From the NCBI RefSeq assembly GCF_000687555.1, contig NZ_JHWJ01000008.1, positions 124,001 to 188,000 on the forward strand: 64,000 nt of DNA, written 5' to 3'. The notes beneath the pieces were generated by a model. That model was not told the DNA's origin, ran no database searches, and saw only the letters and a program-made list of their open reading frames with translations. Below, piece after piece: positions 858-64,000 of this stretch. A program made the position numbers and the translations under genes. Position 1 is the stretch's first letter; every line of letters begins with the position of its first letter. The DNA is from [Clostridium] aerotolerans DSM 5434. Lineage in GTDB: Bacteria > Bacillota > Clostridia > Lachnospirales > Lachnospiraceae.

Positions 858-919
858 AGGCAAACAGCCCTCTCTTTTGTTTCAAATTGTTTTTTTATAT
901 TATTTTGTATACAGTATTT

Positions 920-948
920 AGTATATACCCAAATGAAGAAAAGTACAA
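920..948 (-). promoter_or_regulatory. Predicted sigma-A promoter of ispE
   Basis: Read on the minus strand, the -35 TTGTAC (948-943) is followed after exactly 17 bases by the -10 TATACT (925-920). This sits about 65 bases upstream of the ispE start. The rest of 858-1159 holds only this promoter and the terminator of the next gene. An open frame on the plus strand here lacks a ribosome-binding site and resembles nothing known. Confidence 0.6.
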
Positions 949-1107
949 GCGTTATTCTTTTAACGTATCATATGATGTTTACACGGTAAAAATTCTCAGT
1001 TATAAAGGGGCTGATTCGTTCTGTTTTGGCATTTTCACTATAATGAAAGTCTTTCGTAACCGTTTCTTGTATATCCTGCCCCGTACCATTTTTTCAAGTA
1101 ATAAATA

Positions 1108-1140
1108 TAAAAAAGACTCCAGCAGATATTCTGCGGAGTC
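1108..1140 (-). terminator. Rho-independent terminator of the alarmone synthetase gene
   Basis: The stem GACTCC/GGAGTC, extended by GCAGA/TCTGC around one bulged base, spans 1115-1140. On the minus strand it is followed by a T run at 1114-1108. It lies 20 bases past the stop at 1160, so it fits transcription end for that gene. Confidence 0.8.
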
Positions 1141-1159
1141 CCTTTCAGTGCTGATTCAA

Positions 1160-1738
1160 TTATAAAAATTCTTCCATTGCCTCTTCCATACGCATTAATG
1201 AAGCGGCATAATTTTGAAATGCTCTAGCTGCCTCGGCTTCCTTATTTCCTTTGTAGCAGATCCTGTGTTCCATACTGGCCCATAGATCCATGGACATGGT
1301 ACGAAGCTGGATTTCCACCGGATAATATTCCATTCCATCCGTATGATAGACCGGTACACCGAACACTATGTGATAGCTTCTATAGCCGTTGGCCTTTGGT
1401 TTCCCAATATAGTCGCTCTCTTTTATAATTACAATATCATTCTGTTTTTTTAACAGGTTCACGACTCCATAAATATCTCTTACAAAGAAACAGATCACAC
1501 GAAGACCTGCAATGTCTGTCAGATAGTTTCTGGCCGAATCGATACTGATTTCATGTCCATTGATTTTAAGTTTATTCTCAATGCTTTCCTTTTGCTTAAT
1601 TCTGTGCTGGATGTGATGAATGGGATAATTCTGGTACTTCCTTCTGTAATCCTGATTCAGTACATCCACTCTGACCCTTAGGTTCTTAAGGGCATCCTCG
1701 TAAGGCTGGACAAAGCATAGGTACTCTTCCTCGGTCAT
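1160..1738 (-). CDS. Small alarmone synthetase (RelA/SpoT-domain GTP pyrophosphokinase)
   Basis: Single-domain (p)ppGpp synthetase of 192 residues. It would transfer pyrophosphate from ATP to GTP or GDP to make the stringent-response alarmone. Visible synthetase landmarks are the basic RIKQKESIENKL segment near 46-57, DIAGLRVIC near 75-83, KPKANGYRSYH near 113-123, VEIQLRT near 141-147 and MDLWASMEH near 150-158. There is no HD hydrolase, TGS or ACT domain, so it belongs with the RelP/RelQ-type small synthetases. It is slightly shorter than the roughly 210 residues usual there. GGGAGGTGG precedes the ATG, and a clear terminator follows. The exact subfamily is not resolved. Confidence 0.9.
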   Translation of the reverse strand: MTEEEYLCFVQPYEDALKNLRVRVDVLNQDYRRKYQNYPIHHIQHRIKQKESIENKLKINGHEISIDSARNYLTDIAGLRVICFFVRDIYGVVNLLKKQNDIVIIKESDYIGKPKANGYRSYHIVFGVPVYHTDGMEYYPVEIQLRTMSMDLWASMEHRICYKGNKEAEAARAFQNYAASLMRMEEAMEEFL

Positions 1739-1818
1739 ATTCCACCTCCCTGGTAATTCCTTATCACGGAAATTAAGTATAACCTCTTTTTGTGTCTATA
1801 TGGTGTCCAAACTATGAA

Positions 1819-2565
1819 TTACATATCCTCGGAATCTTCTTTGGGATTTTCGTCACCCTTTCCCATTAAACTGCTGCTGATGGGTTCCTCATCATCCATA
1901 AAAAGCGGTCTCATCTCATCGGAATGCTCTTCTTTTTTAGGCATGTACTGCTCAAAAACAGGAGACAGAATGTATGAATTTATAAATGCGAGAAGCGGAA
2001 ATCCAAACAGCATGAAAATCATGAGGACCGGAGGTATCACAAAGATAAATCCCGTGGCAATCAAGGCTGCGTTGATTACAATCATACCGATGGTACGGAA
2101 TAAATGACGTAATGACATAAAGAACGCATTAAAAAAGGTTTTCTTTACGGTATTATAAAATCTGGACTGCAATGGAAAAATGTACATGAATACGGCTGCG
2201 TATACAATGGTCATAGCCAGGAATACGGTCAGCATTACTGTTTTTAAGGTTCCGGAACCAGTGTATAATCTGGCAAAGAAATACAGATCCACTCCAAGAA
2301 TGGCACCAATGGCCAGAAGCACCAGCCAGATTGCTGTTGCCTGCTTGAAGTTTTCCTTAAATGATTTGAAAAAGGATTTAATGGTGTAACCGTCATCATC
2401 TCTTGCAAGCTTCAGTGTCACATAATATACAGCCGTGGTGGAAGCTCCAATGGTGAAAATCGGTATACTGAATATAAGCCATAAAATATTTAAGAGTATC
2501 AAATCTCCGAATTTGCCAATAAAGCGCCACACCGGATTATCATAATTAAAAAAACCTGATAGCAT
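1819..2565 (-). CDS. YesL-type DUF624 integral membrane protein
   Basis: A 248-residue polytopic membrane protein. The opening with FFNYDNPVWRF, followed by hydrophobic segments near 20-42, 78-98, 107-130, 155-180 and 185-205, matches the YesL/DUF624 family. In Firmicutes these genes often sit beside carbohydrate ABC transporters, but no such transporter is seen here. The C-terminal 40 residues are strongly acidic and probably cytoplasmic (PKKEEHSDEM onward). The function is unknown. The start is supported by GAAGGGG about eight bases upstream and by a good promoter. It may be transcribed with the alarmone synthetase 80 bases downstream. Confidence 0.8.
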   Translation of the reverse strand: MLSGFFNYDNPVWRFIGKFGDLILLNILWLIFSIPIFTIGASTTAVYYVTLKLARDDDGYTIKSFFKSFKENFKQATAIWLVLLAIGAILGVDLYFFARLYTGSGTLKTVMLTVFLAMTIVYAAVFMYIFPLQSRFYNTVKKTFFNAFFMSLRHLFRTIGMIVINAALIATGFIFVIPPVLMIFMLFGFPLLAFINSYILSPVFEQYMPKKEEHSDEMRPLFMDDEEPISSSLMGKGDENPKEDSEDM

Positions 2566-2600
2566 ATGTCATTCCCCTTCTCTCTCTAGCGTCAAAAGTC

Positions 2601-2629
2601 ATTATAGCGGATTTACCAATAAAAATCAA
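2601..2629 (-). promoter_or_regulatory. Predicted sigma-A promoter of the DUF624 gene
   Basis: On the minus strand, the -35 TTGATT (2629-2624), a 17-base spacer and a perfect -10 TATAAT (2606-2601) lie about 35 bases upstream of the start codon. A separate TATAAT on the plus strand at 2692-2697 probably serves the divergent gene at 2738, but its -35 is weak. Confidence 0.6.
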
Positions 2630-2737
2630 ACATTCTTAATTATTTCATGGAAAATTTAGAATTATTTTTTAAAAATTCTCTGGTAATATGATATAATCAA
2701 TAAAGAATTTGGAATATGATAGAAAAAGGAGCACATC

Positions 2738-3439
2738 ATGACCCCCTACGAAGACAAGACCATTAAGGACACCATGCGTGAGGAACGAAGAAAGCTTAAG
2801 GATATGAACGGCAAGGACAAGCTCTGGTATATCTGGGAGTATTATAAGATCCCGATCATCAGCGTGGTGGTGGCCCTATTCCTTATCTTTTCCATTGGCT
2901 CTGCGGTTTATAACAACCGGTTTGAAACAGCCCTAAACTGTGTAATCTTAAACAGCCAGCTCACAAGCCAGACCACCTCTCCCGACGACTATTTTGATAA
3001 AGACTTTCGTCAATACATCAATCTGCCGGAGGATACGAAAATCGAAGTCAATTACTCTATGTCTCTTTCCTTTGACGAGTCAGCCATGAGCGATTTTACC
3101 TATGCGGAGCTGGCAAAGCTCTCTGCCATGATTACCAGCAAGGAGCTGGACGTCATGATTGCAAGGAAGGATTCCATTGACCACTTTGGTAAGATGGAAG
3201 GCTATATGGATTTAAAAAAGCTTCTCTCCCCGCAGGAGTATGAGAAGGTAAAGGATAAGCTTTATTTCGTAACCGTTGAAGAAACCGGAGAGAAGATGGC
3301 TGTGGGCATTGAGATCGACAAAGAGGATTTTGAGAAAAAGACCGGCCTTCTCGTTGATGGACCCATTCTCTCTGTTATGGTAAATTCCACTCATACAGAC
3401 ACAGCCCTTGGCCTGATTCGCTACATGTTCGGGCTGTAA
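2738..3439 (+). CDS. Membrane-anchored protein of unknown function
   Basis: A 233-residue protein that I do not recognise. A charged cytoplasmic N-terminus of about 38 residues (EDKTIKDTMREERRK) precedes one transmembrane helix near 39-58. The rest, about 175 residues, should face outside. The outer part has no cysteine pairs or catalytic motif that I can identify, though the ELDVMIARKDSIDHFGKM stretch recalls binding-protein-like folds; that is only an impression. The ATG has a good ribosome-binding site (AAAAAGGAG). Its 3' end overlaps the convergent acetyltransferase gene by 65 bases. It is divergent from the DUF624 gene, so shared regulation is possible. Confidence 0.75.
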   Translation: MTPYEDKTIKDTMREERRKLKDMNGKDKLWYIWEYYKIPIISVVVALFLIFSIGSAVYNNRFETALNCVILNSQLTSQTTSPDDYFDKDFRQYINLPEDTKIEVNYSMSLSFDESAMSDFTYAELAKLSAMITSKELDVMIARKDSIDHFGKMEGYMDLKKLLSPQEYEKVKDKLYFVTVEETGEKMAVGIEIDKEDFEKKTGLLVDGPILSVMVNSTHTDTALGLIRYMFGL

Positions 3440-4124
3440 GGGTAAAGCCCAAAGACTTTATAAGCCTTAAAGAGGGCAGATTATTTTCCTGAATCCTTGC
3501 ATAGATTCTGGGAGATATCTCTTCACCGGCATAGGTGATGATCGCCTTGCACGCTTCTAAGCCATATCCCTTTCTACGAAAGGAAGTAAAGATGTGATAT
3601 CCCAGCTCCACCGGGGTATCATTTTCTTTTATAAAGGGTAACAATTCTTCCAGACCGGAAAGCTCCATAGGGAAGATTCCAGCCTTTCCCACCAGCCGTC
3701 CTGTCTCATTCTCTGTGAGAGCCCATACGCCGTATTCATAAAAGCCGTACTGGCATCTGATATAGTCCTTTAAAGAATCAGGATGACAAAAGATTTCCCC
3801 GTTCTTTCCTCCATCGGCTTCATGAGGAATCTCTACGCTGTCTTCTTCTATGAATTCCCTTATGGTCAGCCTGTCTGTCCTTCTAATCTGCAAGGGAAGT
3901 CCGTATCTTCTTCTTACCACCTTTTCCAGAAATTCATCGTCTATGTCATCTACCGATTCCACCAGATAGGAAGCAGGGGAGAGAGACTGCCCCTCCTTTT
4001 TTCTGTCCCATAAGCCAATAACAGCCCTGCCTTCTGCATAAGCAGAACACAGGGCTTTGGAATCGTCAGACACGGTAATCTTATATTCAGTTCCTTCTAT
4101 CATAAGTTCCCGTTCCAGAGTCAT
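3375..4124 (-). CDS. GNAT-family N-acetyltransferase
   Basis: A predicted acetyl-CoA-dependent acetyltransferase with unknown acceptor. The C-terminal half (about residues 90-249) carries the GNAT fold, including ELGYHIFTSFRRKGYGLEA, where RRKGYG is the acetyl-CoA pyrophosphate loop, and the NLPSLRLIKSLGF ending. The first 80 residues form an extra domain with no assignment. I placed the start at the ATG at 4124, four bases after the cyclophilin stop, which suggests translational coupling. A TTG at 4163 would add 13 residues inside the cyclophilin gene and has no better ribosome site. The 3' end overlaps the convergent gene at 2738-3439. Confidence 0.8.
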   Translation of the reverse strand: MTLERELMIEGTEYKITVSDDSKALCSAYAEGRAVIGLWDRKKEGQSLSPASYLVESVDDIDDEFLEKVVRRRYGLPLQIRRTDRLTIREFIEEDSVEIPHEADGGKNGEIFCHPDSLKDYIRCQYGFYEYGVWALTENETGRLVGKAGIFPMELSGLEELLPFIKENDTPVELGYHIFTSFRRKGYGLEACKAIITYAGEEISPRIYARIQENNLPSLRLIKSLGFTLTARTCSESGQGLCLYEWNLP

Positions 4125-4128
4125 GGCC

Positions 4129-4647
4129 TTATACGGTTTCTGGTTCTGGATATTCTTCGCCAAAGGTTTCTGCTGTCATGGACTTAATCTTCTGCTCGCT
4201 CATAGGACGGTCGTTATAATCTGTTTTCACGTCAGCAATCTTGTCCACAATATCCATACCCTCAATCACCTTACCAAATCCAGCGTAAGCACCATCTAAA
4301 TGAGGAGCTGGCTTGTGCATAATAAAGAACTGGGAGCCTGCAGAATCAGGATGCATGGCTCTTGCCATGGAAAGCACGCCTTCTGAATGCTTAAATGCAT
4401 TGGCAACGCCATTCTGGCTGAATTCACCCTTAATGGAGTAGCCAGGACCACCGGTTCCTGTTCCCTGAGGACAGCCGCCCTGAATCATAAAACCATTGAT
4501 GACTCTGTGAAAAATCAGGCCGTCATAAAATCCTTTTTTTACCAGACTTAAAAAGTTATTCACTGTGTTAGGTGCGATCTCCGGATAGAGCTCTGCTTTG
4601 ATTATATCTCCATTTTCCATTGTAATTGTAATCACAGGATTTTTCAT
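4129..4647 (-). CDS. ppiB: Cyclophilin-type peptidyl-prolyl cis-trans isomerase
   Basis: A 172-residue single-domain cyclophilin that catalyses proline isomerisation during protein folding. With no signal peptide it should be cytoplasmic. Characteristic segments are IFHRVINGFMIQGG, where Arg and Phe form the active site, then GVLSMARAMHPDSAGSQFFI and AGFGKVIEGMDIVDKIA. AAAGGAAG precedes the ATG. It is the first gene of a likely two-gene unit with the acetyltransferase. Confidence 0.93.
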   Translation of the reverse strand: MKNPVITITMENGDIIKAELYPEIAPNTVNNFLSLVKKGFYDGLIFHRVINGFMIQGGCPQGTGTGGPGYSIKGEFSQNGVANAFKHSEGVLSMARAMHPDSAGSQFFIMHKPAPHLDGAYAGFGKVIEGMDIVDKIADVKTDYNDRPMSEQKIKSMTAETFGEEYPEPETV

Positions 4648-4791
4648 ATTTTACTTCCTTTCCCGCCCTTAGGCTTACATATGTCTGTATTTTATCAAAT
4701 CCTTTTGTTTTTGTCCAGTTGTTCATATTTTGTTTAAATTTCATTCAAAAACCTTTTACACAAACATCATGGTTTCTTCATGTTTCCTGGA

Positions 4792-50660: not shown

Positions 50661-51410
50661 CTAATCATTAGTATAGCATATCAAAGCAGCCTGTACAATC
50701 ATTCGTTCCATTGATCCATAGCAGGTTGATAAGGTGATTAAGCCATCGTTGGAGGTTGGCAAATAGGACGTCTCATACATGGAGCTACTTTTCATCTTAT
50801 GGATAAATTCTGTTTTTTCCGATGGTAGTAAAAATTCTGATTCATAGCATGTAAGATCAGTTTCATTTCTGATTTGGATAGAATAGATAACTGCCTTATA
50901 CCATTTGTCCTTGTAATGTAGTTGGATTATACTGTGAGATTTATAAAATTCCGGCTTCATATATCGCTTTAAGTCTGCAAACATAGTTCCGTCCTTCATA
51001 TTATGGCCGAATATTACCGTATTCCCTTCTCCTGGTTCAGGCGCGTCCTCTTGAACAAATAAGCAGCCACTTGGGTTTTTAGTTCGCATAAAGGTGTGAT
51101 TTAAGTAGTAACCTGGCTGTTGGCTTCTTGTTACCGGATAATCAATGGCCGTCCCCGGTATGGATAACCACATGAGGTAATCTGGATTGATTTCAATGGG
51201 CGATTTATAACTGGATTCTGTATTAATGGTTGGATTTTGATTGTCAGATTGAGGGCTCCAAATGGTTTGGCTCAGATTTGAGTATTCTTTATTGGAGGAC
51301 ATATATAGATTTGCTTGATTTGTTAGTTTTATTGCAGAGATAAGAAATGCAGAAAACCAGAATGCTAATAGGCATATTTTGAGCGGTCTGAGATTTTTTA
51401 CTAAATTCAA
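50661..51410 (-). CDS. srtB: Class B sortase
   Basis: A transpeptidase that cleaves a C-terminal sorting signal and joins surface proteins to the wall or each other. With the TTG start at 51410 it has 249 residues: a membrane helix near 10-30, His136 in VIFGHNMKDG, Cys230 in the TLSTC motif and Arg236. The extra helical N-part and the spacing point to class B. The TTG has no ribosome site. An in-frame ATA at 51485, six bases after AGGAG (51496-51492), would add 25 basic residues typical of a cytoplasmic tail, so the true start may be there. It lies downstream of the giant surface protein, its likely substrate. Confidence 0.88.
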   Translation of the reverse strand: MNLVKNLRPLKICLLAFWFSAFLISAIKLTNQANLYMSSNKEYSNLSQTIWSPQSDNQNPTINTESSYKSPIEINPDYLMWLSIPGTAIDYPVTRSQQPGYYLNHTFMRTKNPSGCLFVQEDAPEPGEGNTVIFGHNMKDGTMFADLKRYMKPEFYKSHSIIQLHYKDKWYKAVIYSIQIRNETDLTCYESEFLLPSEKTEFIHKMKSSSMYETSYLPTSNDGLITLSTCYGSMERMIVQAALICYTND

Positions 51411-51999: not shown

Positions 52000-54900
52000 T
52001 CACATTTTCTGTTTGGTCTTTTTTTGTTTTTTCTGTTTTCCTATTTTCAATATAATAATTGTACCTGTCAGACTGATGAATATCCCCATGGTCCAAATGA
52101 GAAATGAAAAATGATCCCCCGTTTTCTCCCCATTTATCTTTCCTTTTTTACCATAAATCAGTTCCAACCAGGAAGGATTTAAGGGGACTTTTTGATAAAA
52201 GGCAGTAACTTTACCAACTTTTAAAGGCTCGTTGGGTGGATCTGTCTGGGGTGGAGGTGGTAAAGGTATTGGATCTCCTCCCGTTTTCCCCGGAGTCTTT
52301 AAATCTGTCATGTATACATCAGCAACTATAGCCGCTCTTGGTACAACAAATTCAACTGGTTCAGAAAATTGATATCCCTCAGGAGGTTCTACTTCTTTGA
52401 GTATGTATTTTTCTCCTGCTTCCAGCTGCCCTTCTATTATTGTTTCTGTTGGTGCTGTTGTGAAATCAGGTATTACAACTTCCCCTTTCATATTTAATAT
52501 TCGAAGAACAGCGCCTTTAAGCTGCCTTCCACTGGAATCTACCTTATGTATTTTAATTTTTGTTGTATCATTGACCATTTTTACTGATGTAATTTCATTT
52601 TGCCTCTCTACAGTAAACAAGACAGATTCTGCATATGCATATCCTTTTTGAGGCTTATCTTCACATAGAAAATATGATTCTCCTGCTGCCAGCTTTCCAA
52701 ATATATGATGAGGTTCTTGAATAGATACCCACCTCTCTATGATTGCACCATTTTGATCTCTTATGCTCATGAGATTACCGGGGAGCTCATTTTGATCTGT
52801 GATTGATTTTTTAGATAGTATTACTTGAGTCTCATCATTAACCATTAAAACCTCGTCGAATGTTCCGTCCATGCTCACAGTAAAGTGAACATCCTCTCCA
52901 TAAGAATAACCCTTTGCAGGTTTTACCTCATGAATCCAGTATTGATGACCAGCTAATAATTGACCTTTTATTACTTTCATTTCTTCCGTTGTTGTAAAAA
53001 TCAGCTCCTCACCTATTTTATAAGCATCAGAATCTCTAATGGCTTTTGCTGGCGATTTATCTTCATTTAATATCTGAAGAATATTGCCTGGTAAGAGAGA
53101 CTCGGCTTCCGATGGAGTTCCAGTTGTATGCGCTCTTGCTGTTTTCTTTATGAAAATTGTTGTCTTTTTATCCTTCATTGTTACCGTAAGCTTCGTTGCC
53201 TCCCTGGGAACCATAAACTCCATTTTCTCACTATAAGCATATCCAGCAGGGGGGTCCTCTTCTATTAATTCATAGGATTGTCCGGCAATGAGCTGCCCTT
53301 TTATTAGGATTTGCTTCTCTTCAAATGTGAGGGACTTTATGAGTTTTCCGGTATCTTTCTCCAAGAGGGAAAAGCGTCCGCCAGCTAATATCTTTCCTGT
53401 ATCTTCATCTATTTTTTGAATGTACACTTCAGTCTGTTTATCTTCCATAACAATGGTTTCTGAAATACCAGCATTATCAGCTGTAAAAAGAATATCATTT
53501 TCATAGGAGTAACCATCCGGAGCTATATCCTCACGGACAATGTACGGCTGACCTGGGCTGATTAAATGAGAGGGGATTTCCACTAATTTTGCTTCTGTCA
53601 TTGTAAATTCATACAAGACCTTATTGCTAATCGCATCAATGAGGCTATAGTGTCCGCCTATTATCATATGTCCAGTCTCTCTGTCTACTTTAAGAAAATT
53701 TAATTTCACCGGACGATCTTCCATATCCAGATTATCAACCATCCCCAGATTATTTATGGAGAATCTATATACTCCACTTGTAATACTATTTTTATCGCTG
53801 TATACAGTATTCTCCGTCAGACAATAGTTACCTCCTGATGTTAGAATTTCACGAATTGTATTATCATCTCTGTTATTTATAAAGACAGCGCTCTGTAACG
53901 TCTTTTGTATCTCTCCAGTTCTGATCCCTCCTTTCAGTTCGTAATCATCTGTTGGTTCCTGATTAATTTCGTATCTGGTTCCATATGGGAGTCCGGTAAA
54001 TGTTATATATCCATCTCCTGAAAGAGTAATGGTTCCTTCTCCCTTGATTCGTCCCGCTAAGGAGCCATTAAATGCCTGATAACCAGTCAAAATTGTTCCA
54101 TTCTGGTCTGTAAGCTTTACGTGGTATGTAAATGTATCAGATTGATTCTCAGCGTGCCCTGTACTACCGGGTATTCCGGTACCTGTTAGCTTATTTATGA
54201 TGGTGATTGATCCATCTGGAACAATCGGATTTGACAGGACGGTACGTTTTGATACGGCATTTACTCTTGTTTCAAACCATGCTTTTGCTTGTGATCCTGT
54301 CTCACCGTTTACAACTACAACCACGTCCACGGTTCCGCTTTCATGGGCAGCAACATCGGTAAGATTCCAGGTTACGTTTCCGTTTTGCTCTGTTCCATAG
54401 TCCGTGGATCTTAAATATTCCAGTCCATCTGTTAGAACTGCTTTGATGCGGATATCAGCCGGTTTGTTATAGGTGTTTGTATATGTGATAGAATACTTTA
54501 TAACGTTTCCTGCCTTGACAGCTCCATGATCCGCTCCAATGCTGCTTGTTACCTTGGCAATTGGAACTTCTTTGATCACCGGATTTAAAATCGTGTAATC
54601 GTGATTATCATTATTCACTGCCCAGCTTGCCAGGACATTCCCATTCCCATCCTTTAATTCCTGTCTGGTTCCCAGATACGTCCGGGAAGGAAGGGTATAA
54701 CTCCCATCTCCATTGAAGTAAATTCGCCTGGTTTCCTTAAAGGATTTTTCTGACCTTCCATCGGAATATTTGGTATACTCTGTGATTTCATACAAATGGC
54801 CTTCCGTAATGCCATCCATTGCTGTTACTTTTTGATTTTCTCCGGTTCCGATTAAGGCTGGCAATTCATAACCAGTGTCAAGGTCCTTGATAACGGTATA

Positions 54901-57900
54901 TACCTTTACGGGCACCCGGCCAGTTACAGTAAGCGCTTCAATGGCTCCGTTATCGCTGGCCAGTTTTAATACATTAAAATCATTGGATACATTTTTGATT
55001 CCCGTTCCAGCTTTATTTACCGTAAAAATTACTGGTTTCGATAGCGCATATCCAGCTGGAGCTTTCAACTCCTCCATGATGTAGAGCTGGTTTGCTTTTA
55101 GTTTTTTCGTTAAGGTAAAACCATTCTCTCCGGAAACAACCGTTGCAATGGCCCCTCCGTTCTTTTGATATTCTCCATCAACCACGGCTGCCTCATAAAC
55201 AGCAATCTCTGCGCCCTTTACGGCTATACCGGTATTAAAGTCCGTTTTTTTGAAATGAATTTCTGTGGGGTTGTTTCGTACTTCATAGTTGTACTTCACT
55301 TCTGTGCCACTCTCTGTTCCATCAAATTGGAACTTTTTCACTCCTGTGGTGATCTGATAAAAATCAGGAGGAGAAATTTCTTCCACCGTGTAAGTGTAGG
55401 CTTTTACGGTGCCATCTGTCTGAACCTTTCCCACCGAAAGATTTCTTAAAATGGCGCTTCCTTTGGTGCCGGTTGTCATATACCAGACAGTTCCTGTATC
55501 CTGGTTTGTTACTTTAAACCTGGCATTTTCTAAGCCCTCTGTGGAGTCTGAAGCCTTTTTATTGATTTCCAATGCTCCAATGGTGGGGTGATTGGTGAAA
55601 CGATAAACCGGTATCTTTTCTGCTCCCACTTCGATTTTTATTGGATCTGCTTTCTGCATATAGGACGGTGGAGTGATCTCTACAATGTAGTAGGTTCCGT
55701 ATGCGACCTTACTGATTCGGTGGGGTTTTAGATTTCCCACTTGGAACCCTTCTATAATTTTGTCATTAAACTGATCTTCTTTGGTATAGAGTCCATCTGA
55801 TCCGGAGATCCAGGTCTCTACAAAGTGGTTTTCATCCTTTACAAAGCTTCCGGCTTCATCGGCCCGATATAGGGCAAGTTTTGCTCCTTCGGCTGCATAC
55901 TGATTGGCCCCATCAGAAATAACCTTTAAAACATTAATGAACTTCTCTTCATTTTGTAAGCCTACTCGTTGTACGGCTCCTGTTTCCGTTAAGGTGATTG
56001 CTTTTGGATCAGCCGGTTCGAATCCGTCCGGGACCTTCTCTTCCACCAGAACATAGGCTCCTATTTTTTTCCCGTTTGTTTCTGCATTCAAAGGCAGATA
56101 ATCAAAACGGTGCATTCCCTCTAAGGTATCATAGGATTTTATGCCGTCATATTCCTTATAATTGAACTGGTATTCAAAGATCAAAGGCAGCTTTCCATCA
56201 GAATCCAAAGCGCCGTTTGTGACGTTTCGGTAAATGGTAATCCGGATTGTTGCCCCCGTGTCAGTTGTCCAGGTCTGAGTCATACTCTCTCCCTTTCCGG
56301 TCGAGGTGCTCCCGGTCAGTTCTGCACTCCGTATTCCGCTTTTGGTGTACCAGGTAAGGTAGGTAAGCTCTTCCCCCTTTTCCCGGTAAGCGGCTTCAAA
56401 ATCTGTTAGGAAACTGGATTCATTATCCGCTATCCCTAAGAAGCCTTTTATGCGGTCCCCAAACTTCGTACTCTTTTCTGTCAACTCTGTGTAATCGCTT
56501 AAATTGTCCGTGGTCCATTCCCCAACCTTTTTTGTTGGATCGTACTGAGGTTTTCCCCCTTCCATTAAAATAGTTCCATCTTGGTTTGTCTTTGCTTCAT
56601 AAAGGGCGAGCCCGGCAGCGTGATCATTTGGTAACAGTAACCGATTTCCTTTACTGTCTAAATAGTATTTATAAATTTCCAGTTTGGTGTGGTCATTGGT
56701 AACGTCAATGGTCTGAACGTCACCAGCTGGTTTTACGATAATCTCCATGGAAGTTCTGACATATCCGCTTGCTGCCTCAGTTTCTTCCAGGATATAGTCT
56801 CCTGCCGGGATACCCTCAAAATACTTGGCTTTCCCATCGGTGATCCAGTCGGCTACAATACGCACCGGTGCATTATCTTCCGTGTTTTCTACGGTCCACT
56901 CTGCCGGTTTATTTTCTGTTTTTACCAGATAATAACCTTTGGGATAGGTGTTGCTGTCTGTGGTGGAAACTCTTTTCGCTTTATAAAGCGACAGGTGCGC
57001 CCCCGTGATCTGCTGATAGCTGTAAGTGCCTTTGGGTTCCGTTATTACAAGATTCTCCTGGGGGGCTAACTCTTGGTCATAGTCACTGATCACCGGAATC
57101 CGGTACTGACCAGGCGCGTCCGTCTTTGTAATCTCCACTTTGATTTTTGGATCTTCCATGCTGGCGGTCTGTACCTCTTTACGTTCCGTTACGGTGATTC
57201 CCTGGGGGAAGCCTTTTTGATAGCCGGAAGGAGCTTTTACCTCTTCGATGATGTACTTCCCTGGTATCACACGTTTTAACATATCTGCCTGTCCAACGGA
57301 CTTTTCTGATTGGAACGGATCATTGGGATAGGTTTCTCCAGTGATCCAGGTATTTTCCATGACCCAGGCTTCGCCCTGGCGGTAGTAGAGCTTCGGATCG
57401 TCGGTGATATCCTCTTCTGAACCGATAGCATCTCTTTCGGCCTTATGATTGATCCGGTAAGCGCCCCGGTTAAAGGACTCTAAGAGATCATCGTATTTGT
57501 ATCTCACATAATCCCCGTCAATGTCATAAATTGGATCTCCCTTTTTGTAGGTCTCCTCTGATTTTTGGTAGTACTCTAGTAGGCCATGACCGTTGAATAC
57601 TGGATTCATGCTCTTTTGAAAGGTTTTACCCTGGTACGTTCCGGTGGTGTACTCCTGGTCGGTATCTGCATTCACGGAAGCAATCCGGAAGGTTCTTATC
57701 TTTTCTCTGGCTATGATAGCTCCGGTCTTATTCTTTGATAGCTTGACCGGCCATACCAGAAGCATGTCTCCCTCTTTGGTGGGATCTGCCCCGCTACTCC
57801 GGGTATAGGCCATACCGGTGGTAGGATTAACAAATGCATCCCGGTTCCCTTCCGAATCTAAGTGATAAAGTGTTGTTTCAGAAGGTAGTGTTAGGAGCTT

Positions 57901-60900
57901 GTCTGCCTTTGTATAGCGGACCTTGGTTAAATCCCCCCCAGTCAGCTCAAAGACTGGTTTTCCTGCCTTTAACACAAAGATGGATTCCCGGTTCTTTACC
58001 GATACCTTATTGCTGTTCCTGTCATAACCGTAGACTGCTCCATCAGTGCCTGTTTCTGTAACCGTAAGATCTGCCAGAGAATAAAAGAGAATGTCGGTAT
58101 CTTCCCGGTCAATGGTCTGAAACATCCAGGTACCTTCTCCGGTTCCTCCGGATAGGCTTCCTTCCAGATCCTGCTTGTTGATAAATTCTACGGTACTTCC
58201 TGCATATCCTTTTTTCACCTTTATGGACTGGACGTTATTATTGCGGTCTCTGGTCACTTCCACTCCATTATACCCGTAATCTTCGCTGTCTCCGTTTTCT
58301 TTGATCTCAATGGCATCGTAAAGCGCCATCTTTGCTCCGGCTGCGTAACGGTTCTTATGGTCAGCGGTGTCCAGTGGTCTGGAGACCAGGCCATATCCAG
58401 CAAACACACCACTGAAATAAACTGGCTCCACATCTTCTCCGGCTTCTTTTCTGGCCAGAAGTGCTTCTAACGTCCCTTTGAACCAGCCATATCCTAAGTA
58501 GGTCCCGTTCTTATAGCCAAACTCCAGGTTTTCTGCTCCATATCTCTGCTTTAATTCCAGTTCGGTTCCTTCCACTCTGGTTTCGGTCTGGTAGGTGATG
58601 GTCTTTGCAGAATCCTTGATTTTGGATACTTCTAAGCGGACCGGGGTATTTCCCACATAGACCCTTGCGGTATCCTCTTTCATGGCCCCATCTTCACCTT
58701 GATTCTCATAAATAGCTGCGGCCACTCTCTCATCCCGGTTTCTGTCCAGGTAATATGTGGTCTGATCGGAATAGATTTCAATGGCCACCGGCTTTGTTCT
58801 CACATAACCAGCGGGAGGTTTGATTTCGCAAAGGACATAAGTCCCTGCGCCAAGAGGCTGAGGGGTGACAAGGTATCCGGTGTTCTGATCTTGGTATTCT
58901 ATCTTTCCTTTATCCTCTTCCTTGGCCTGATGGCCGTCCCTGGTGGTGGTAAAGGCTTCGAACTGTCCAGTCCTTCTACCTTCCTGATCAGCGAGGATCA
59001 CTTGCTTTGCTTCCTCACAGATAGGGGTTCCTGCCGGGACAATTCCGGTCCATAGAGTCTGTCCCGTTTCATCCAGCAATCCAGAATTATTTATCTTATC
59101 TGCTCCCATGGCTTCTAAAAACTCCTTGGAGCCTTTAATTCTGGTTTCAGTCTCATAAAATTTCACCAGACCATCCGTGGTTTCTCCATCCTCTCTGGAA
59201 GCGGCATACAGGGCAAAGATGGCCCCATCATGTAAGATATTTTCTCCTGTTTCGGAATCCAGCTTTTCAATTCGTAACCGGCTTTTATAAAAGGTATTTG
59301 TGAATTTCCGATATCCATACCCTTTGTAGCTGGAGGTCCCATCCTGATTTTGAACGGCATCCGTTTGCTCATTGGCCGGTTCTGTCACGGACCAGGGAAC
59401 TAACATGGAAGCATACTTACCATCAAAGGCGGTCTGCATTCCCTCCATAGCCGTTACATGATCCTGATAGACTACTCCACTCTCTGATGGAAAAGCCACC
59501 TGGTCATAGATTTGTTTATCCTCTGAGATAGAGCCGTAACGGTAGATTTTTTCTACGCCATCAGTCTCATAGGTGGAGCCGTTTGGCGTTCTCTTTCCGG
59601 CATTTCCATCGTCAGCCAGGTAATGGCTGCTTGGACTGCCTCCGGCTTCCTTGGAGTGGACCATGGTGTTATAGTAATCTTTTCCCGGATCGTACTTTTC
59701 CTGCGTGATAGTAAAGTGTCCTTTCCCAGATGGGTCTCCAGGAGACGTACCGGAAATTGCCTGAAGGTCTAAACTATAAGGATAAATTTCATAATCTCCT
59801 AACCGGCTGTGCGCCCGGATCACATATTTACGCTTGTCCTCTCCATTTTCTCCTGGCCATTCCTCATTGAATCGAATGTGATATTTGGAAGAAAGTGCTG
59901 CCACGCTGTCAGAAGCATTATAGTTGTAATAGTGACTCATGGCTTCCGGTGTCTGATCTGATCCGGCTTTCCCTCCTTCGTATACCGCTGGAAGTTCGAT
60001 TTCCTTTGGAGCATCTGTCTTATAGTGCTTATTGAAAAGATCTCCTAAGTCTTTATTAAAAGGCTGCTGTTCCACGGCCACGTAGGTTCCGTAGGGGAGA
60101 TATTCTGACACTCCATAGCAATATCCGGCCTCGGTATCTTCCTGATCGGCGCTTAGGGTCGTAATATCTTTGTCTTTTCCTCCCTCTGCTTCACTGTCCC
60201 AATGAATGGAATAAATTTCATCAAGGTCGTAGCTGAAGAACGGTTTTAAATAATTCTCTGCTTTTTTAATGGCTTCAGACAAAGCCTTATCATAAAGTTC
60301 ATCCGGATATTTCTCCTGTCCGGAAGCTCCCTCTGTTTCTCCGGCCGGATTCTGTTTTATCAGCTTTGCTACTTCATCATCTAAATACCAGGTAATTGCA
60401 AACTGGCGGACATGATCGGAACGCTGGGAATTGCTTTCAGCTTCAGGAGAGGTGTTTATATTGTTCTTCATGTCTGGATTGTTATGGATGGCCGGGTATT
60501 CCTTTTGACCTCCGGCCGTTCCAAACAGTAATTGCTTGATCCAGGCAAAGGGTTTAAAGGAAGTGCTGCCATTGTCCGTCCGGTCCCATTTATCTTCATT
60601 GGCCACTTTGATTCCATCAAAAAACTTCTCATAGTTGTAACCTCTAATCTCCCGGTCGTTTCCGGCTTCATCCTTCACCTTCTGCAAGCCTTTTTCTAAG
60701 ATTGCTGTATATCCTGAATTTTGATCTGCATTGATATAATTGTTTGTGTAACTATAAAGTTCAAAATTGGCAATTACTGCCTGGTTGGAATTTTTTTTCA
60801 GAGGTTCAGTCTCATGGTCTACGTTAGTGTATAGCTTTTGTACCTTTTCTGGAAATGAATCCAGGTAAGCTTTGATATCCACGGTATTTCCGTTCCGGTC

Positions 60901-63900
60901 CTGCCAGAGAATGCTTCCATCCTCTGCCCGGTAGAGCCGTTCTAAGTTGGATTTTAAGTAGGCTTTGAACCGGAAGTTCTTCTTGTAGCTTGCGTTATCT
61001 TTGGTTCCACCTCCCTCTTTGGTAAACTTATCTTCTGCTCCAGCCTTTGCGTAGGTATTATCTTCATAGGTTCCATCCACCTGGACCGATATGTCCTTTG
61101 TGATCTTTGCTTTCTGCATGATAGGCCGTCCCAGTAGGGAAACAGGGGCTTGTCTGGTCCCACCATCAGAATCAATCCGGGTCCGATCATACCGGAGCGT
61201 CACTGATTCGATGTAACTTCCTGCACTGGCCATCTTGGGCGTAACAGAAATGTTACCATAGTACTCTGCATACTCCTGGGGCGTGGTATAGGTCCCTTCC
61301 ATCAGCTCCGTATTGTATTTGATCCGGTACTCTTTTGTTTCGGTTCCCTCACCTCCAGATGCTTCTATGGTATATCCCGTTCCGTCATATGTGGCAGTGA
61401 CGGGTGTATCAACGTCCTTTAACTCATAGCCTGGTGCTACCTGGATCTCTTCCTCTACCATGACTTTTTTAATACTTCCATCATTGTTACGGATAGGTTC
61501 GCCCTGGGCGTAGACCCAATAGGTCCGTTCCCGGCTTTCCTGTAAGGTGATCGTTGATAAATCTTCTGGAAAAACAGCCTCTTTCTTTGAAAGCTCCCCA
61601 GCTTTTACCTTGGCAAAGGTAAGAAAGCCGTTCCCATTTTCCTTATAGTCCTCCAGCTGATCCACGGTGTAGGAAAGATATACATATCCGGAAACTTCCG
61701 TCCCCTTGATCTTGTAAATGATTGGCTGTTTTACAAGGACTATTTTTCTGGCTTCATCGTATATCCCGGAAGAAATGGAGGTCCCCACCCGGTAGGAATA
61801 GCGGATCACGGCATTTCCATCTGTGATTTCCTCGATGCGTAAGCAGTTAAAAACAGATAGTCCAGCTTCCTCCATACCTTCATACAAACTTTTTGCCTGT
61901 TCCTCAAAGGTCTCACCCTCCACGGGAACTAACATCCAAGGGGCTCCCTCATCTGGTTCCTTAAAGGAAGCTTTCTTTAGTGCTGCATTGGCATCCTCTG
62001 TTAAGTCCTCGGTATTCTTTTTATCTTCAAGAGTAGGAATGGTATAGCGCAGAGCATTGTCCGGACGAACTGCGGTATAGTCATACTCCGGGTCCGATAC
62101 CAGACTTACCACCACGCTCTCTCCATTGGGAAGGATTATGGTATCTCCTGCCTTTGCAGCCACGCTCTGGCCGTTTATAATGACCTTGGCTCCAGCTTCT
62201 TCTGCCAGGGCTGTTTCTTCCCTGGATACATACTCCGTATGGGTCCCCTTGGGATCTTCCACGATCTGGCTTCTTGTTTCGTAAAAGGAGGCTCCTGCCG
62301 GGATTCCCTGGGCGTAGATCTGATACCCGTTTATGGTTCCACTGCTTTTTATGGTGAAGGTATTGCTTTTCTTTAAACGGTCTACCTCCAGGCTTCCTGC
62401 GGAAACAGTCCCCTCTGCCGATGGATTCCCTCCGGCTTCAAAGGCTTCCCGGTTCGTATGGGCTGCATCTTTTCCATACACGGAAAGTTCATAGCCTTCC
62501 GACCGGGTCAGCTCCTTGATATAATACTGGGTTCCGTCAGCTCCTACCAAAAGCGGCCGGCCGATCCAGGCATTTCCGTTCAGTGCCTCATTGTTTTCTA
62601 TGGGGTAGAAATGACTGCCCTCTCCGGTGCCGTCCCGTCCTTGGTTGGAGGAAAGCTTCTGGTAGCCGGATGCGGTCTCACCTCGGCTGTCTGTCATGGA
62701 AATGCTGCTCCCACCGGAGGTATGGCCCTCAAACCGTTCCAGGTCGGCCTCTTTACTCACCGCCTTTCCCATGGAGGTGTAGAGATTTGTCGGGGCAATA
62801 TCAGCAAAACCGCCAGGTCTCCTTTCAATGGCTCCCGTTTGATAATTATAGGTATGTCCCGGTGCCTGGATAATGGTCAAGAAACTGGCTTCCCCATTCC
62901 GGTCTGTGGTTGATACGGAAACCAGGTCATCCTTTTGAAATACCACTCCGGAATGCCCGTCTGGATGGGAAACATCGGTGGCTGCAAACAGCCCGTACAC
63001 TGCTCCCTCCATACTTCCATCTCCCTGGGTATCCCCGTAAGCGTTGTAATTCCCGGATTCCCCTTTCTTTAGATCCATGTCCTTTTTATTGATATGGATA
63101 TCACCCTCCACCCGGTGGTCGTAAACAATAAAGGTCCAGTCAATGATGTTTGAACTTGGGGGAGATATCCGGCTGGTCTCCGTTGACTCCGGAAGTGAGG
63201 ATAAGGAGGAGCTTCCTCCAGCCCCCTTTTTCTTACTGGTCAATTTCAATAGGGAATTTGTTTTGTCAGCTACCATTCGCAGACTTGATGTAATGCTTGC
63301 CTCAATCTGTTCCAAAAAGCCGGTAAAGGAGATCCCGCCATTAACGGCATCTGCCTGGGAAAGAGTGGCCTTTTTCTTTTTGACTGGTTGTGGAAGTTCC
63401 ATAGGAAGCGTTTCCGGAATGGTCTCTTTCAGATTTTCTGCTTGGGATTCCTGGGTCTCCTGTTCCGCTGTCTCTTCTGGTGCTTCTGCACTGGTCTCTG
63501 GCTGTGTTTCTACTTCTGTTGTTACTTCCGTGGTTTCAGATGTTGCTTCTTCCTCCTCTTCTGTTTCTGTTTGCTTCTGACTCTCTGCTTCCGTTTCTGG
63601 CTTTGTTTCTTCTACCGGTTGTTCCATTGTTTCATTCTCGGAAGGAACTTCTACTTCTGTCTCATGTTCCGCTTCTGCTTCTTGGTCAGATACAATAAAA
63701 TCCTTTTCATGGACCAGATCCACTTGCTCTACGGCACCAAAGCCCATGAGTAAGTCCTGTCTGGAGGTGAAATCATCTTGCTGAAGGAGGGACGTATCAA
63801 GGGAAATAGAATCTTCCTCCATGTCTGATCCGCCCTCTAAGTTGGCAGAACGCTTACCAGAAGAACGGTAATTCTTATACTCACTGGATGAAACGGTTCT

Positions 63901-64000
63901 CCACTCTATCGGGATATCATCGGGATGGCTGCCATGAAGGGCATAGCCTGGAGCTGGTGTGGTCTCCTTTGCCGAGTACTCGTAATCTAAGGAAATGAAG
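52000..64000 (-). CDS. Giant SpaA/Cna-B-type surface protein (partial, N-terminus off window)
   Basis: The frame is open from base 64000 to the stop at 52000, about 4,000 codons; the ATG at 63822 is internal, since coding-like sequence (AKETTPAPGYALHG) continues upstream. A Thr/Glu-rich linker is at about 63400-63700. Many prealbumin-like SpaA/Cna-B modules follow, e.g. RLRIEKLDSETGENILHDGA with CEIKPPAGYV. Further on are a DUF11-like domain (about 54230-54560), a DUF7601-like domain (about 53850-54220) and five tandem 90-residue modules (about 52310-53720) with paired Lys (IQKIDE, IHKVDS) and Glu (EEDPPAGY, KEVEPPEGY) suited to isopeptide bonds. The end has a Pro-rich stretch (PLPPPPQTDPP), the motif NGEKTGD, a membrane helix and a Lys-rich tail, i.e. 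a sortase signal. It is a likely adhesin or stalk. Confidence 0.85.
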   Translation of the reverse strand, partial: FISLDYEYSAKETTPAPGYALHGSHPDDIPIEWRTVSSSEYKNYRSSGKRSANLEGGSDMEEDSISLDTSLLQQDDFTSRQDLLMGFGAVEQVDLVHEKDFIVSDQEAEAEHETEVEVPSENETMEQPVEETKPETEAESQKQTETEEEEEATSETTEVTTEVETQPETSAEAPEETAEQETQESQAENLKETIPETLPMELPQPVKKKKATLSQADAVNGGISFTGFLEQIEASITSSLRMVADKTNSLLKLTSKKKGAGGSSSLSSLPESTETSRISPPSSNIIDWTFIVYDHRVEGDIHINKKDMDLKKGESGNYNAYGDTQGDGSMEGAVYGLFAATDVSHPDGHSGVVFQKDDLVSVSTTDRNGEASFLTIIQAPGHTYNYQTGAIERRPGGFADIAPTNLYTSMGKAVSKEADLERFEGHTSGGSSISMTDSRGETASGYQKLSSNQGRDGTGEGSHFYPIENNEALNGNAWIGRPLLVGADGTQYYIKELTRSEGYELSVYGKDAAHTNREAFEAGGNPSAEGTVSAGSLEVDRLKKSNTFTIKSSGTINGYQIYAQGIPAGASFYETRSQIVEDPKGTHTEYVSREETALAEEAGAKVIINGQSVAAKAGDTIILPNGESVVVSLVSDPEYDYTAVRPDNALRYTIPTLEDKKNTEDLTEDANAALKKASFKEPDEGAPWMLVPVEGETFEEQAKSLYEGMEEAGLSVFNCLRIEEITDGNAVIRYSYRVGTSISSGIYDEARKIVLVKQPIIYKIKGTEVSGYVYLSYTVDQLEDYKENGNGFLTFAKVKAGELSKKEAVFPEDLSTITLQESRERTYWVYAQGEPIRNNDGSIKKVMVEEEIQVAPGYELKDVDTPVTATYDGTGYTIEASGGEGTETKEYRIKYNTELMEGTYTTPQEYAEYYGNISVTPKMASAGSYIESVTLRYDRTRIDSDGGTRQAPVSLLGRPIMQKAKITKDISVQVDGTYEDNTYAKAGAEDKFTKEGGGTKDNASYKKNFRFKAYLKSNLERLYRAEDGSILWQDRNGNTVDIKAYLDSFPEKVQKLYTNVDHETEPLKKNSNQAVIANFELYSYTNNYINADQNSGYTAILEKGLQKVKDEAGNDREIRGYNYEKFFDGIKVANEDKWDRTDNGSTSFKPFAWIKQLLFGTAGGQKEYPAIHNNPDMKNNINTSPEAESNSQRSDHVRQFAITWYLDDEVAKLIKQNPAGETEGASGQEKYPDELYDKALSEAIKKAENYLKPFFSYDLDEIYSIHWDSEAEGGKDKDITTLSADQEDTEAGYCYGVSEYLPYGTYVAVEQQPFNKDLGDLFNKHYKTDAPKEIELPAVYEGGKAGSDQTPEAMSHYYNYNASDSVAALSSKYHIRFNEEWPGENGEDKRKYVIRAHSRLGDYEIYPYSLDLQAISGTSPGDPSGKGHFTITQEKYDPGKDYYNTMVHSKEAGGSPSSHYLADDGNAGKRTPNGSTYETDGVEKIYRYGSISEDKQIYDQVAFPSESGVVYQDHVTAMEGMQTAFDGKYASMLVPWSVTEPANEQTDAVQNQDGTSSYKGYGYRKFTNTFYKSRLRIEKLDSETGENILHDGAIFALYAASREDGETTDGLVKFYETETRIKGSKEFLEAMGADKINNSGLLDETGQTLWTGIVPAGTPICEEAKQVILADQEGRRTGQFEAFTTTRDGHQAKEEDKGKIEYQDQNTGYLVTPQPLGAGTYVLCEIKPPAGYVRTKPVAIEIYSDQTTYYLDRNRDERVAAAIYENQGEDGAMKEDTARVYVGNTPVRLEVSKIKDSAKTITYQTETRVEGTELELKQRYGAENLEFGYKNGTYLGYGWFKGTLEALLARKEAGEDVEPVYFSGVFAGYGLVSRPLDTADHKNRYAAGAKMALYDAIEIKENGDSEDYGYNGVEVTRDRNNNVQSIKVKKGYAGSTVEFINKQDLEGSLSGGTGEGTWMFQTIDREDTDILFYSLADLTVTETGTDGAVYGYDRNSNKVSVKNRESIFVLKAGKPVFELTGGDLTKVRYTKADKLLTLPSETTLYHLDSEGNRDAFVNPTTGMAYTRSSGADPTKEGDMLLVWPVKLSKNKTGAIIAREKIRTFRIASVNADTDQEYTTGTYQGKTFQKSMNPVFNGHGLLEYYQKSEETYKKGDPIYDIDGDYVRYKYDDLLESFNRGAYRINHKAERDAIGSEEDITDDPKLYYRQGEAWVMENTWITGETYPNDPFQSEKSVGQADMLKRVIPGKYIIEEVKAPSGYQKGFPQGITVTERKEVQTASMEDPKIKVEITKTDAPGQYRIPVISDYDQELAPQENLVITEPKGTYSYQQITGAHLSLYKAKRVSTTDSNTYPKGYYLVKTENKPAEWTVENTEDNAPVRIVADWITDGKAKYFEGIPAGDYILEETEAASGYVRTSMEIIVKPAGDVQTIDVTNDHTKLEIYKYYLDSKGNRLLLPNDHAAGLALYEAKTNQDGTILMEGGKPQYDPTKKVGEWTTDNLSDYTELTEKSTKFGDRIKGFLGIADNESSFLTDFEAAYREKGEELTYLTWYTKSGIRSAELTGSTSTGKGESMTQTWTTDTGATIRITIYRNVTNGALDSDGKLPLIFEYQFNYKEYDGIKSYDTLEGMHRFDYLPLNAETNGKKIGAYVLVEEKVPDGFEPADPKAITLTETGAVQRVGLQNEEKFINVLKVISDGANQYAAEGAKLALYRADEAGSFVKDENHFVETWISGSDGLYTKEDQFNDKIIEGFQVGNLKPHRISKVAYGTYYIVEITPPSYMQKADPIKIEVGAEKIPVYRFTNHPTIGALEINKKASDSTEGLENARFKVTNQDTGTVWYMTTGTKGSAILRNLSVGKVQTDGTVKAYTYTVEEISPPDFYQITTGVKKFQFDGTESGTEVKYNYEVRNNPTEIHFKKTDFNTGIAVKGAEIAVYEAAVVDGEYQKNGGAIATVVSGENGFTLTKKLKANQLYIMEELKAPAGYALSKPVIFTVNKAGTGIKNVSNDFNVLKLASDNGAIEALTVTGRVPVKVYTVIKDLDTGYELPALIGTGENQKVTAMDGITEGHLYEITEYTKYSDGRSEKSFKETRRIYFNGDGSYTLPSRTYLGTRQELKDGNGNVLASWAVNNDNHDYTILNPVIKEVPIAKVTSSIGADHGAVKAGNVIKYSITYTNTYNKPADIRIKAVLTDGLEYLRSTDYGTEQNGNVTWNLTDVAAHESGTVDVVVVVNGETGSQAKAWFETRVNAVSKRTVLSNPIVPDGSITIINKLTGTGIPGSTGHAENQSDTFTYHVKLTDQNGTILTGYQAFNGSLAGRIKGEGTITLSGDGYITFTGLPYGTRYEINQEPTDDYELKGGIRTGEIQKTLQSAVFINNRDDNTIREILTSGGNYCLTENTVYSDKNSITSGVYRFSINNLGMVDNLDMEDRPVKLNFLKVDRETGHMIIGGHYSLIDAISNKVLYEFTMTEAKLVEIPSHLISPGQPYIVREDIAPDGYSYENDILFTADNAGISETIVMEDKQTEVYIQKIDEDTGKILAGGRFSLLEKDTGKLIKSLTFEEKQILIKGQLIAGQSYELIEEDPPAGYAYSEKMEFMVPREATKLTVTMKDKKTTIFIKKTARAHTTGTPSEAESLLPGNILQILNEDKSPAKAIRDSDAYKIGEELIFTTTEEMKVIKGQLLAGHQYWIHEVKPAKGYSYGEDVHFTVSMDGTFDEVLMVNDETQVILSKKSITDQNELPGNLMSIRDQNGAIIERWVSIQEPHHIFGKLAAGESYFLCEDKPQKGYAYAESVLFTVERQNEITSVKMVNDTTKIKIHKVDSSGRQLKGAVLRILNMKGEVVIPDFTTAPTETIIEGQLEAGEKYILKEVEPPEGYQFSEPVEFVVPRAAIVADVYMTDLKTPGKTGGDPIPLPPPPQTDPPNEPLKVGKVTAFYQKVPLNPSWLELIYGKKGKINGEKTGDHFSFLIWTMGIFISLTGTIIILKIGKQKKQKKTKQKM

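Follow-up and report, generated by a model that had tools for sequence, protein, structure and literature searches.

Positions 52,000 to 64,000 of the analyzed window, a 64,000-nucleotide stretch of the genome of [Clostridium] aerotolerans DSM 5434 (G000:C8:124001-188000), carry on the minus strand the 3' part of a single gene, which probably encodes a giant wall-anchored fibrillar adhesin with a stapled stalk, a thioester-tipped head and an exchangeable head-partner cassette. We call the genus Lacrimispora, a name taken from related named records. In the proposed mechanism, a signal peptide would secrete the protein and the adjoining class-B-like sortase would anchor it to the wall at GEKTGD. 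The stalk (residues ~2250-4585) would be a row of CnaB/SpaA domains together with a DUF11 and a DUF7601 domain, and, judging from conservation, most of these modules would be stapled by spontaneous Lys-Asn or Lys-Asp bonds with the Glu of a turn as catalyst. At the tip, a thioester (Cys122, Gln404) would bond covalently to amines of the target, and insertions in the CnaB-like head modules may bind or recognize this target. The head and a small secreted gene upstream would then form one exchangeable specificity cassette with stalk and anchor kept constant; exchange and co-occurrence are read from sequence comparisons and the specificity is presumed.

The initial annotation had reported a frame without stop over 12 kb that runs off the window. 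This single frame (52000-63999, minus strand), whose 5' end is open at the window edge, was completed from the genome contig to a gene of 4,678 codons without internal stop (L021:1001-15037, minus strand; ~519 kDa), the first ~2 kb of which lie beyond the window and reach G000:C8 190036. Since the second ATG (Met4) has an AGAGG Shine-Dalgarno sequence in better spacing and matches the start common to several homologs, 4,675 aa is the likelier length. A basic-hydrophobic leader ending in ...VSYA before the mature protein was found by eye, as had been hoped for upstream of the window. The C-terminus consists of GEKTGD, a membrane segment and a basic Lys-rich tail, and 19-residue windows with a mean hydropathy above 1.6 occur only at 4643-4665, between GEKTGD and this tail. 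A frameshift or misassembly joining separate genes had been named as something that would refute the giant protein, and a repeat artefact was weighed along with it. A copy with several in-frame stops does exist (G419:C1:5575774-5579903); G401, G410 and G412 have shorter frames. However, single frames of similar length recur across the genus in many independent genomes, of which several are single-contig, distant homologs can be aligned over the whole length at 36-50% identity, and no long repeats were found in the 12 kb of the window frame, so that the artefact is already refuted and keeps practically no probability. As the direct repeats are just pairs of 30-32 nt with 70-75% identity, a recent tandem duplication was rejected as well.

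Head and stalk of the protein have different histories. A comparison of the window protein with 13 loci (14 rows) revealed two classes of heads, A and B, which are 39-42% alike between and 64-93% within a class; the stalks are 70-83% identical between head classes, and stalk similarity does not follow the class. Compared with L094 in blocks of 200 residues, the window protein shows 19-66% identity up to residue 2200 and 72-89% over residues 2201-3400. Quick trees of head and stalk were calculated from 17 rows. Forcing the head-B rows together on the stalk cost 244 log units (approximately unbiased (AU) test, p 1.3e-6), and forcing a stalk clade on the head cost 1,563 log units (AU p 2.0e-9), with the restriction that the groups were chosen after the identities had been seen, for which the AU test does not allow; for the head tree the program warned of long branches meeting. 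Because head and stalk trees conflict, the sequences make it almost certain that heads have been exchanged between species as a block.

The head seems to travel with its upstream neighbor. A P0003-type secreted protein is encoded directly upstream of head A in all nine fetched loci with upstream sequence and also next to the window gene, where P0003 (L021:15110-15823, minus strand) lies 72 bp upstream of the giant. Head B is preceded in 3/3 loci by a different small secreted protein with a weak transglutaminase-core match (17.9 bits, below the cut-off of 23). Separate searches of 25 genomes of the genus placed head A in 13 loci of 12 genomes and full-length partner A in these 12 genomes too, likewise at 13 loci, and head B in 12 loci of 12 genomes with partner B in the same 12; shorter repeat-like P0003 matches, which occur in many of the 25 genomes, were excluded from these counts. 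The pair is on one contig in 23 of 25 cases, and the G398 pair and the B pair of G410 are split over contigs of fragmented assemblies. Both head types occur together only in G410, and G402 and G409 have neither. Most other clades have no small gene at the partner position according to a scripted check, so the pairing is a trait of Lacrimispora and some others and not of the whole family. Between the P0003 gene and the giant, a hairpin with a T run was seen by eye, which the automated scan did not report.

For the Pfam analysis of the modules, the protein was cut at its motifs into 18 pieces, with 17 candidate modules (M1-M17). The cut-off of SpaA (PF17802) was reached by 11 pieces (M4, M5, M6, M8, M9, M10, M13-M17), all within residues 2248-4585, and missed by seven: M7 fell short (19.4 of 23.1 bits), M1 and M2 gave weak partial SpaA matches, M3 and M11 no Pfam match, and one piece each matched DUF11 and DUF7601. 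With the whole protein as query, Pfam reported SpaA in 13 stretches plus DUF7601, and 13 Glu-turn motifs were counted compared to a mean of 1.3 and a maximum of 5 in 200 shuffles of the protein. The proposed giant surface protein of SpaA/CnaB modules is borne out by the 11 pieces together with the wall-sorting tail, and the suggested profile search indeed matched SpaA, DUF11 and DUF7601 domains. The picture of module after module is correct for residues 2248-4585 but not for residues 680-2247 (39% of the in-window part), which have weak or no SpaA similarity. In the same way, conserved triads point to a long isopeptide fibre for the stalk, whereas about half of the protein is N-terminal head.

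Across 38 aligned close homologs (P0002 and P0006-P0042, of which P0021, P0041 and P0042 are incomplete), 37-38 rows retain most of the triad residues, and the residues next to them vary; the weaker ones include N3114 (32), K3949 (34) and N3588 (35). M1 lacks the triad Lys in the window protein. Triad sites at residue 2240 or beyond, picked by eye from the window protein, were scored in a divergent set of 50 rows (at least 60% coverage and less than 62% identity over residues 2250-4580). The fraction kept was 0.81 for triad Lys versus 0.21 for other Lys, 0.89 versus 0.35 for Glu and 0.81 versus 0.39 for Asn/Asp. Sites that failed are K3691 (0.08), K3949 (0.00), E4023 (0.33) and N4055 (0.17), and K4498 (0.50), E4459 (0.44), N4489 (0.50), N3685 (0.57) and D4578 (0.68) are about half kept. 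The Lys-Glu-Asn/Asp triad is therefore not kept in M11 and M12, and M11 probably forms no bond because divergent relatives do not conserve its Lys. Deeply conserved triads are seen in about nine stalk modules (M4-M10, M13 and M14), with the acceptor of M10 conserved less deeply, and M15-M17 appear complete or almost complete in close relatives only. Taken together, this conservation makes isopeptide chemistry in the stalk highly probable. The bond itself differs from the Lys-Glu link of the initial annotation, as CnaB-like domains form Lys-Asn or Lys-Asp links with Glu as the catalyst (PMC12617251, in the sections covered). The predicted mass shift is therefore -17 Da for Asn or -18 Da for Asp, so that the proposed -17 Da per bond is expected for Lys-Asn links but not for Lys-Asp, and a thioester likewise costs about -17 Da (PMC4450167, in the passages covered).

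We interpret the N-terminal ~2,240 residues as a head and not as a module array, with a probable thioester-domain tip followed by CnaB-like modules split by insertions. YCVE at Cys122 fits the Cys motif [YFL]C-hydrophobic-polar of thioester domains (TEDs), and this motif is present in 50/72 open reading frames of the family and kept across head types. The candidate partner Gln404 in SQTYF is found in 38/38 close homologs; its first motif position is not hydrophobic, other Gln residues are equally invariant and the region is unalignable further out. The giant did not match the Pfam TED profile and the TQxxW helix motif was not found in it, a motif that is not fully conserved among known TEDs either (PMC4450167, in part). 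A Foldseek search with the tip gave no significant match, and a PDB profile search with both head parts gave nothing useful. From the structural model and the motifs we nevertheless consider a TED with Cys122 and Gln404 the likely identity of the tip. The protein is not classed as a full thioester-isopeptide-ester (TIE) protein because the ester-bond motif HxDxxDxxQ was not found in it. M1, M2 and M5 appear to carry large insertions in a CnaB-like domain, as in Spy0125 (Cpa), and M2 is possibly a CnaB domain split in this way.

These data can also be read as a structural coat or matrix fibre, that is, a stapled spacer for a surface layer or biofilm without reactive tip, in which the head differences reflect drift and recombination instead of a choice of target. 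The near-constant length, the high conservation across the stalk and parts of the head, the lack of a known target and a thioester assignment based on model and motifs all speak for such a fibre. On the other hand, the two head classes are co-resident in only 1/25 genomes and each has its own partner gene, and the tip is TED-like with an N-terminal Cys motif kept across head types. We therefore regard the coat fibre as unlikely and keep the adhesin as the preferred reading. The features within the window are listed in Table 1.

Table 1. Features of the putative giant adhesin gene and the neighboring sortase in the window (positions of the 64,000-nucleotide stretch; K, E and N/D are the residues of the putative triads).
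Feature	Positions	Strand	Basis
Giant adhesin gene, 3' part (residues ~680-4678 of 4678)	52000..64000	-	open frame and contig
Head, in-window part (residues 680-2247): acidic linker seen by eye (~740-930), ahead of M2 and M3, which carry large insertions	59296..63999	-	
M2 start, 14.7 bits to SpaA; every scored divergent row has Lys984 and Glu1175	62257..63114	-	Pfam, conservation
M3, Glu1989 turn, no Pfam match, Lys = 1647 or 1691	59317..60999	-	motif, conservation
M4 SpaA module, 36.3 bits, K2258/E2404/N2463; first module of the conserved stalk	58627..59295	-	Pfam, conservation
M5 SpaA module, 26.1 bits, contains a large insertion, K2472/E2932/D2962	57127..58650	-	Pfam, conservation
M6 SpaA module, 39.9 bits, K2971/E3085/N3114	56671..57153	-	Pfam, conservation
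M7 SpaA-like module, 19.4 bits (below cut-off 23.1), K3123/E3332/N3362	55921..56697	-	Pfam, conservation
M8 SpaA module, 26.2 bits, K3371/E3453/N3482	55561..55953	-	Pfam, conservation
M9 SpaA module, 37.5 bits, K3493/E3553/N3588	55246..55593	-	Pfam, conservation
M10 SpaA module, 52.1 bits, K3597/E3656/N3685 (0.57 of divergent rows keep the acceptor)	54961..55275	-	Pfam, conservation
M11, no Pfam match, Lys3691 kept in 0.08 of divergent rows	54562..54984	-	Pfam, conservation
DUF11 domain, 27.7 bits (cut-off 24.6)	54202..54585	-	Pfam
M12, DUF7601 domain, 64.8 bits, Lys3949 not conserved	53857..54219	-	Pfam, conservation
M13 SpaA module, 28.1 bits, K4116/E4169/D4199	53422..53724	-	Pfam, conservation
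M14 SpaA module, 42.7 bits, K4208/E4259/D4289	53146..53442	-	Pfam, conservation
M15 SpaA module, 24.0 bits, K4298/E4370, acceptor ambiguous; divergent rows too gapped to score	52813..53172	-	Pfam
M16 SpaA module, 35.8 bits, K4409/E4459/N4489 (about half of the divergent rows keep Glu and Asn)	52546..52845	-	Pfam, conservation
M17 SpaA module, 50.4 bits, K4498/E4548/D4578 (half of the divergent rows keep Lys)	52282..52575	-	Pfam, conservation
C-terminal sorting signal: GEKTGD (residues 4636-4641) followed by a hydrophobic segment and a basic tail	52003..52131	-	motif, hydropathy
Class-B-like sortase (249 aa; motifs TLSTC and GHN), 589 bp downstream of the giant	50661..51410	-	Pfam, motifs

The sortase downstream of the giant contains a Pfam sortase domain (59.6 bits, cut-off 26.6), and its TLSTC fits the catalytic motif TLxTC. 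We term it class-B-like because it stays below the cut-off of NCBIfam TIGR03064 (138.6 of 153.75 bits). From 73 open frames of the family, 14 with less than 5 kb downstream or running off the record and four sortase-fused ones were left out, and the tails of the remaining 55 were classified with one fixed criterion applied to the last 75 residues, with counts not corrected for relatedness. A sortase is adjacent in 7/8 frames with [E/A][K/R]TGD tails (L086, L088, L097, L100, L137, L148 and L158), in 0/12 with PxTG[D/E] tails and in 0/35 with tails lacking xTG[D/E]. The single exception, L126, has the tail without an adjacent sortase and weighs against a fixed pairing. The sortase profile was built partly from the neighbors of L088 and L148 and from fused ends, and the window sortase alone as query retrieved the same seven loci. 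It is thus rather likely from these patterns that the adjoining sortase is the dedicated, private anchoring enzyme of the giant. Sortase-polymerised pilins are marked by the pilin motif WxxxVxVYPK and a class C sortase alongside. As a motif search did not find WxxxVxVYPK in the giant and its sole adjoining sortase is class-B-like and not class C, the protein seems not to be a polymerising pilin.

The gene order around the giant-sortase pair is conserved from Lacrimispora to Hungatella, with a Clp-type ATPase, an oxidoreductase and wall-binding proteins as neighbors in both. A protein with wall-binding repeats is encoded upstream of the giant in most fetched loci of the genus and in Hungatella, and L021:16782-19901 (minus strand) and L022 contain a large secreted protein with cell-wall-binding repeats. 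Known RNA families gave 0 matches above threshold at the locus (L021, L086, L088 and L097). These conserved neighbors bear on the idea of a mating or aggregation factor from a conjugative element, in which the head would select the partner cell. It could draw on L180 (genome G119), where a ParA-like gene, a sortase and a third gene come after the giant, the third by eye resembling what we take to be genes of large conjugative elements, and on L107 with a sortase 3.6 kb downstream. But the neighbors are kept throughout the genus and in Hungatella, and 19 of the 22 stalk-bearing genomes have a single locus (G399, G410 and G416 have more), which makes this origin quite improbable.

The stalk is present in these 22 of 25 genus genomes with 70-100% identity and was not found in G402, G409 and G411, the last of which still has a piece of head B where a contig ends. 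The homologs listed from 1,428 scored candidates number 75, 47 of them with at least 4,500 aa, and several homologs are already named "SpaA isopeptide-forming pilin-related protein" in the database. A scan of named genomes yielded 280 relatives, and the records of the best 80 of 280 are named Lacrimispora, Hungatella, Enterocloster, Clostridium and other Lachnospiraceae. The genome of the window strain also encodes a second giant of 5,177 aa with many SpaA matches (L023:4016-19549, plus strand; G000:C17) and a 1,452-aa SpaA/DUF7601 protein (L025:6161-10519, minus strand; G000:C11), both with an LPKTGE anchor.

Some relatives unite the same parts differently. The giant frame ends in a sortase domain in L122, L156, L157, L160 and L162 (5/73 frames) and also in P0074 and G119:C5; these sortases carry TLSTC, or LCTC in L122, and L156 reaches 47 bits with Pfam Sortase. 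By eye, two membrane segments precede the class-B-like sortase in the fused frames, which makes substrate and sortase parts of the same polypeptide. In L150-L152 and L155, the 3' frame continues, again judged by eye, through sorting-signal-like, membrane and internal signal-peptide-like stretches into another domain. A separate family of ~1,640 aa carries a thioester domain, SpaA, a sorting signal and a sortase on a single chain (L178:2252-7165, plus strand; L179; L181). Out of 6,419 matches at E <= 0.001, 120 were listed, 119 of which contain PF08341, PF17802 and PF04203, and the four listed ones that bear a name are annotated as "class B sortase".

Head-only genes, which lack stalk and anchor, end just before the last strand of M4 (L106, L109, L117, L120, L128 and L135); L106 and L109 have 2,474 and 2,627 aa, L117, L120 and L128 are open at the 5' end and L135 is interrupted. 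The 2.6-kaa homologs were rejected as contig-end fragments, since L106, L109, L117, L120 and L128 stop with sequence beyond. L. amygdalina src4, C48_71 and C65_88 have full-length giants alongside head-only genes, and in C. porci head genes stand in a row with small secreted genes between. Identity of head-only gene and resident giant per 200-residue block is 27-66% in L. amygdalina and 13-52% in C48_71, and pairs of head-only proteins such as P0051-P0073 share 15-61% over the first ~1,800 positions and then 97-100%. Silent cassettes converting the resident full-length gene are not supported, as no high-identity tract was found, and nothing beyond the missing last strand supports the cut M4 as a natural split isopeptide "catcher". 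A wider reading, which we put forward tentatively as a whole, is a two-gene exchangeable-tip adhesin, in which head and secreted partner, as a specificity cassette, would be transferred together by recombination to an unchanging, self-stapled stalk that has a private sortase. This partner would act on the tip, and the transglutaminase-like type B partner may cross-link or prime it; in relatives the same parts would have given rise to genes for the head alone, lacking stalk and anchor, and to polyproteins that unite adhesin, internal sorting signal, internal signal peptide and sortase in one frame.

On the best reading, the closest system in design is the giant adhesin of Mobiluncus. According to the sections covered of PMC10619420, M. 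mulieris and M. curtisii have single LPxTG proteins of 5,040 and 7,645-7,651 aa, which similarly combine an N-terminal region of more than 2,000 residues, including a predicted thioester domain, with a long cross-linked stalk. The likeness is one of design; the Mobiluncus stalk is a mixture of ester-bond and Spy0128-like isopeptide Ig domains in contrast to CnaB/SpaA in Lacrimispora, and those sections mention neither a dedicated sortase nor head exchange. TIE adhesins and the thioester-tipped proteins Cpa and SfbI of streptococci also place a thioester tip on an isopeptide stalk (PMC4450167, in part), and Cpa (Spy0125) has a large domain inserted in a CnaB-like domain (PMC12617251, in part). 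In the passages covered of PMC4450167 most TEDs have TQxxW, unlike the Lacrimispora giant, which has a class-B-like sortase and a GEKTGD tail. In AbpA-SrtB of oral streptococci, an adhesin and its own sortase B likewise share one locus and the sorting signal is non-standard (PMC4974636, in part). AbpA is a helical coiled-coil with an LPKTS-AVK tail distinct from signals with a hydrophobic domain, and the passages covered do not mention an isopeptide stalk (PMC4974636).

The giant resembles SpaA/CnaB isopeptide proteins in its 11 modules passing PF17802. With ~4,680 aa, no pilin character by the tests above and different histories of head and stalk, it departs from the SpaA pilin-related label. 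TIE adhesins and Cpa/SfbI are far smaller than the Lacrimispora giant. A few term combinations in an open-licence library retrieved no title or beginning of an abstract on the giant's family, head exchange or natural substrate-sortase fusions. The analysis turns a database label into a defined, genus-wide putative adhesin with a natural experiment of two heads, two partners and one stalk. This makes testable the target of the head, the role of the co-inherited partner and the co-evolution of sortase and sorting signal as a private pair. The fused substrate-sortase relatives offer a way to study sortase action in cis, and the family as a whole would be a good system for how giant bacterial adhesins change their targets.
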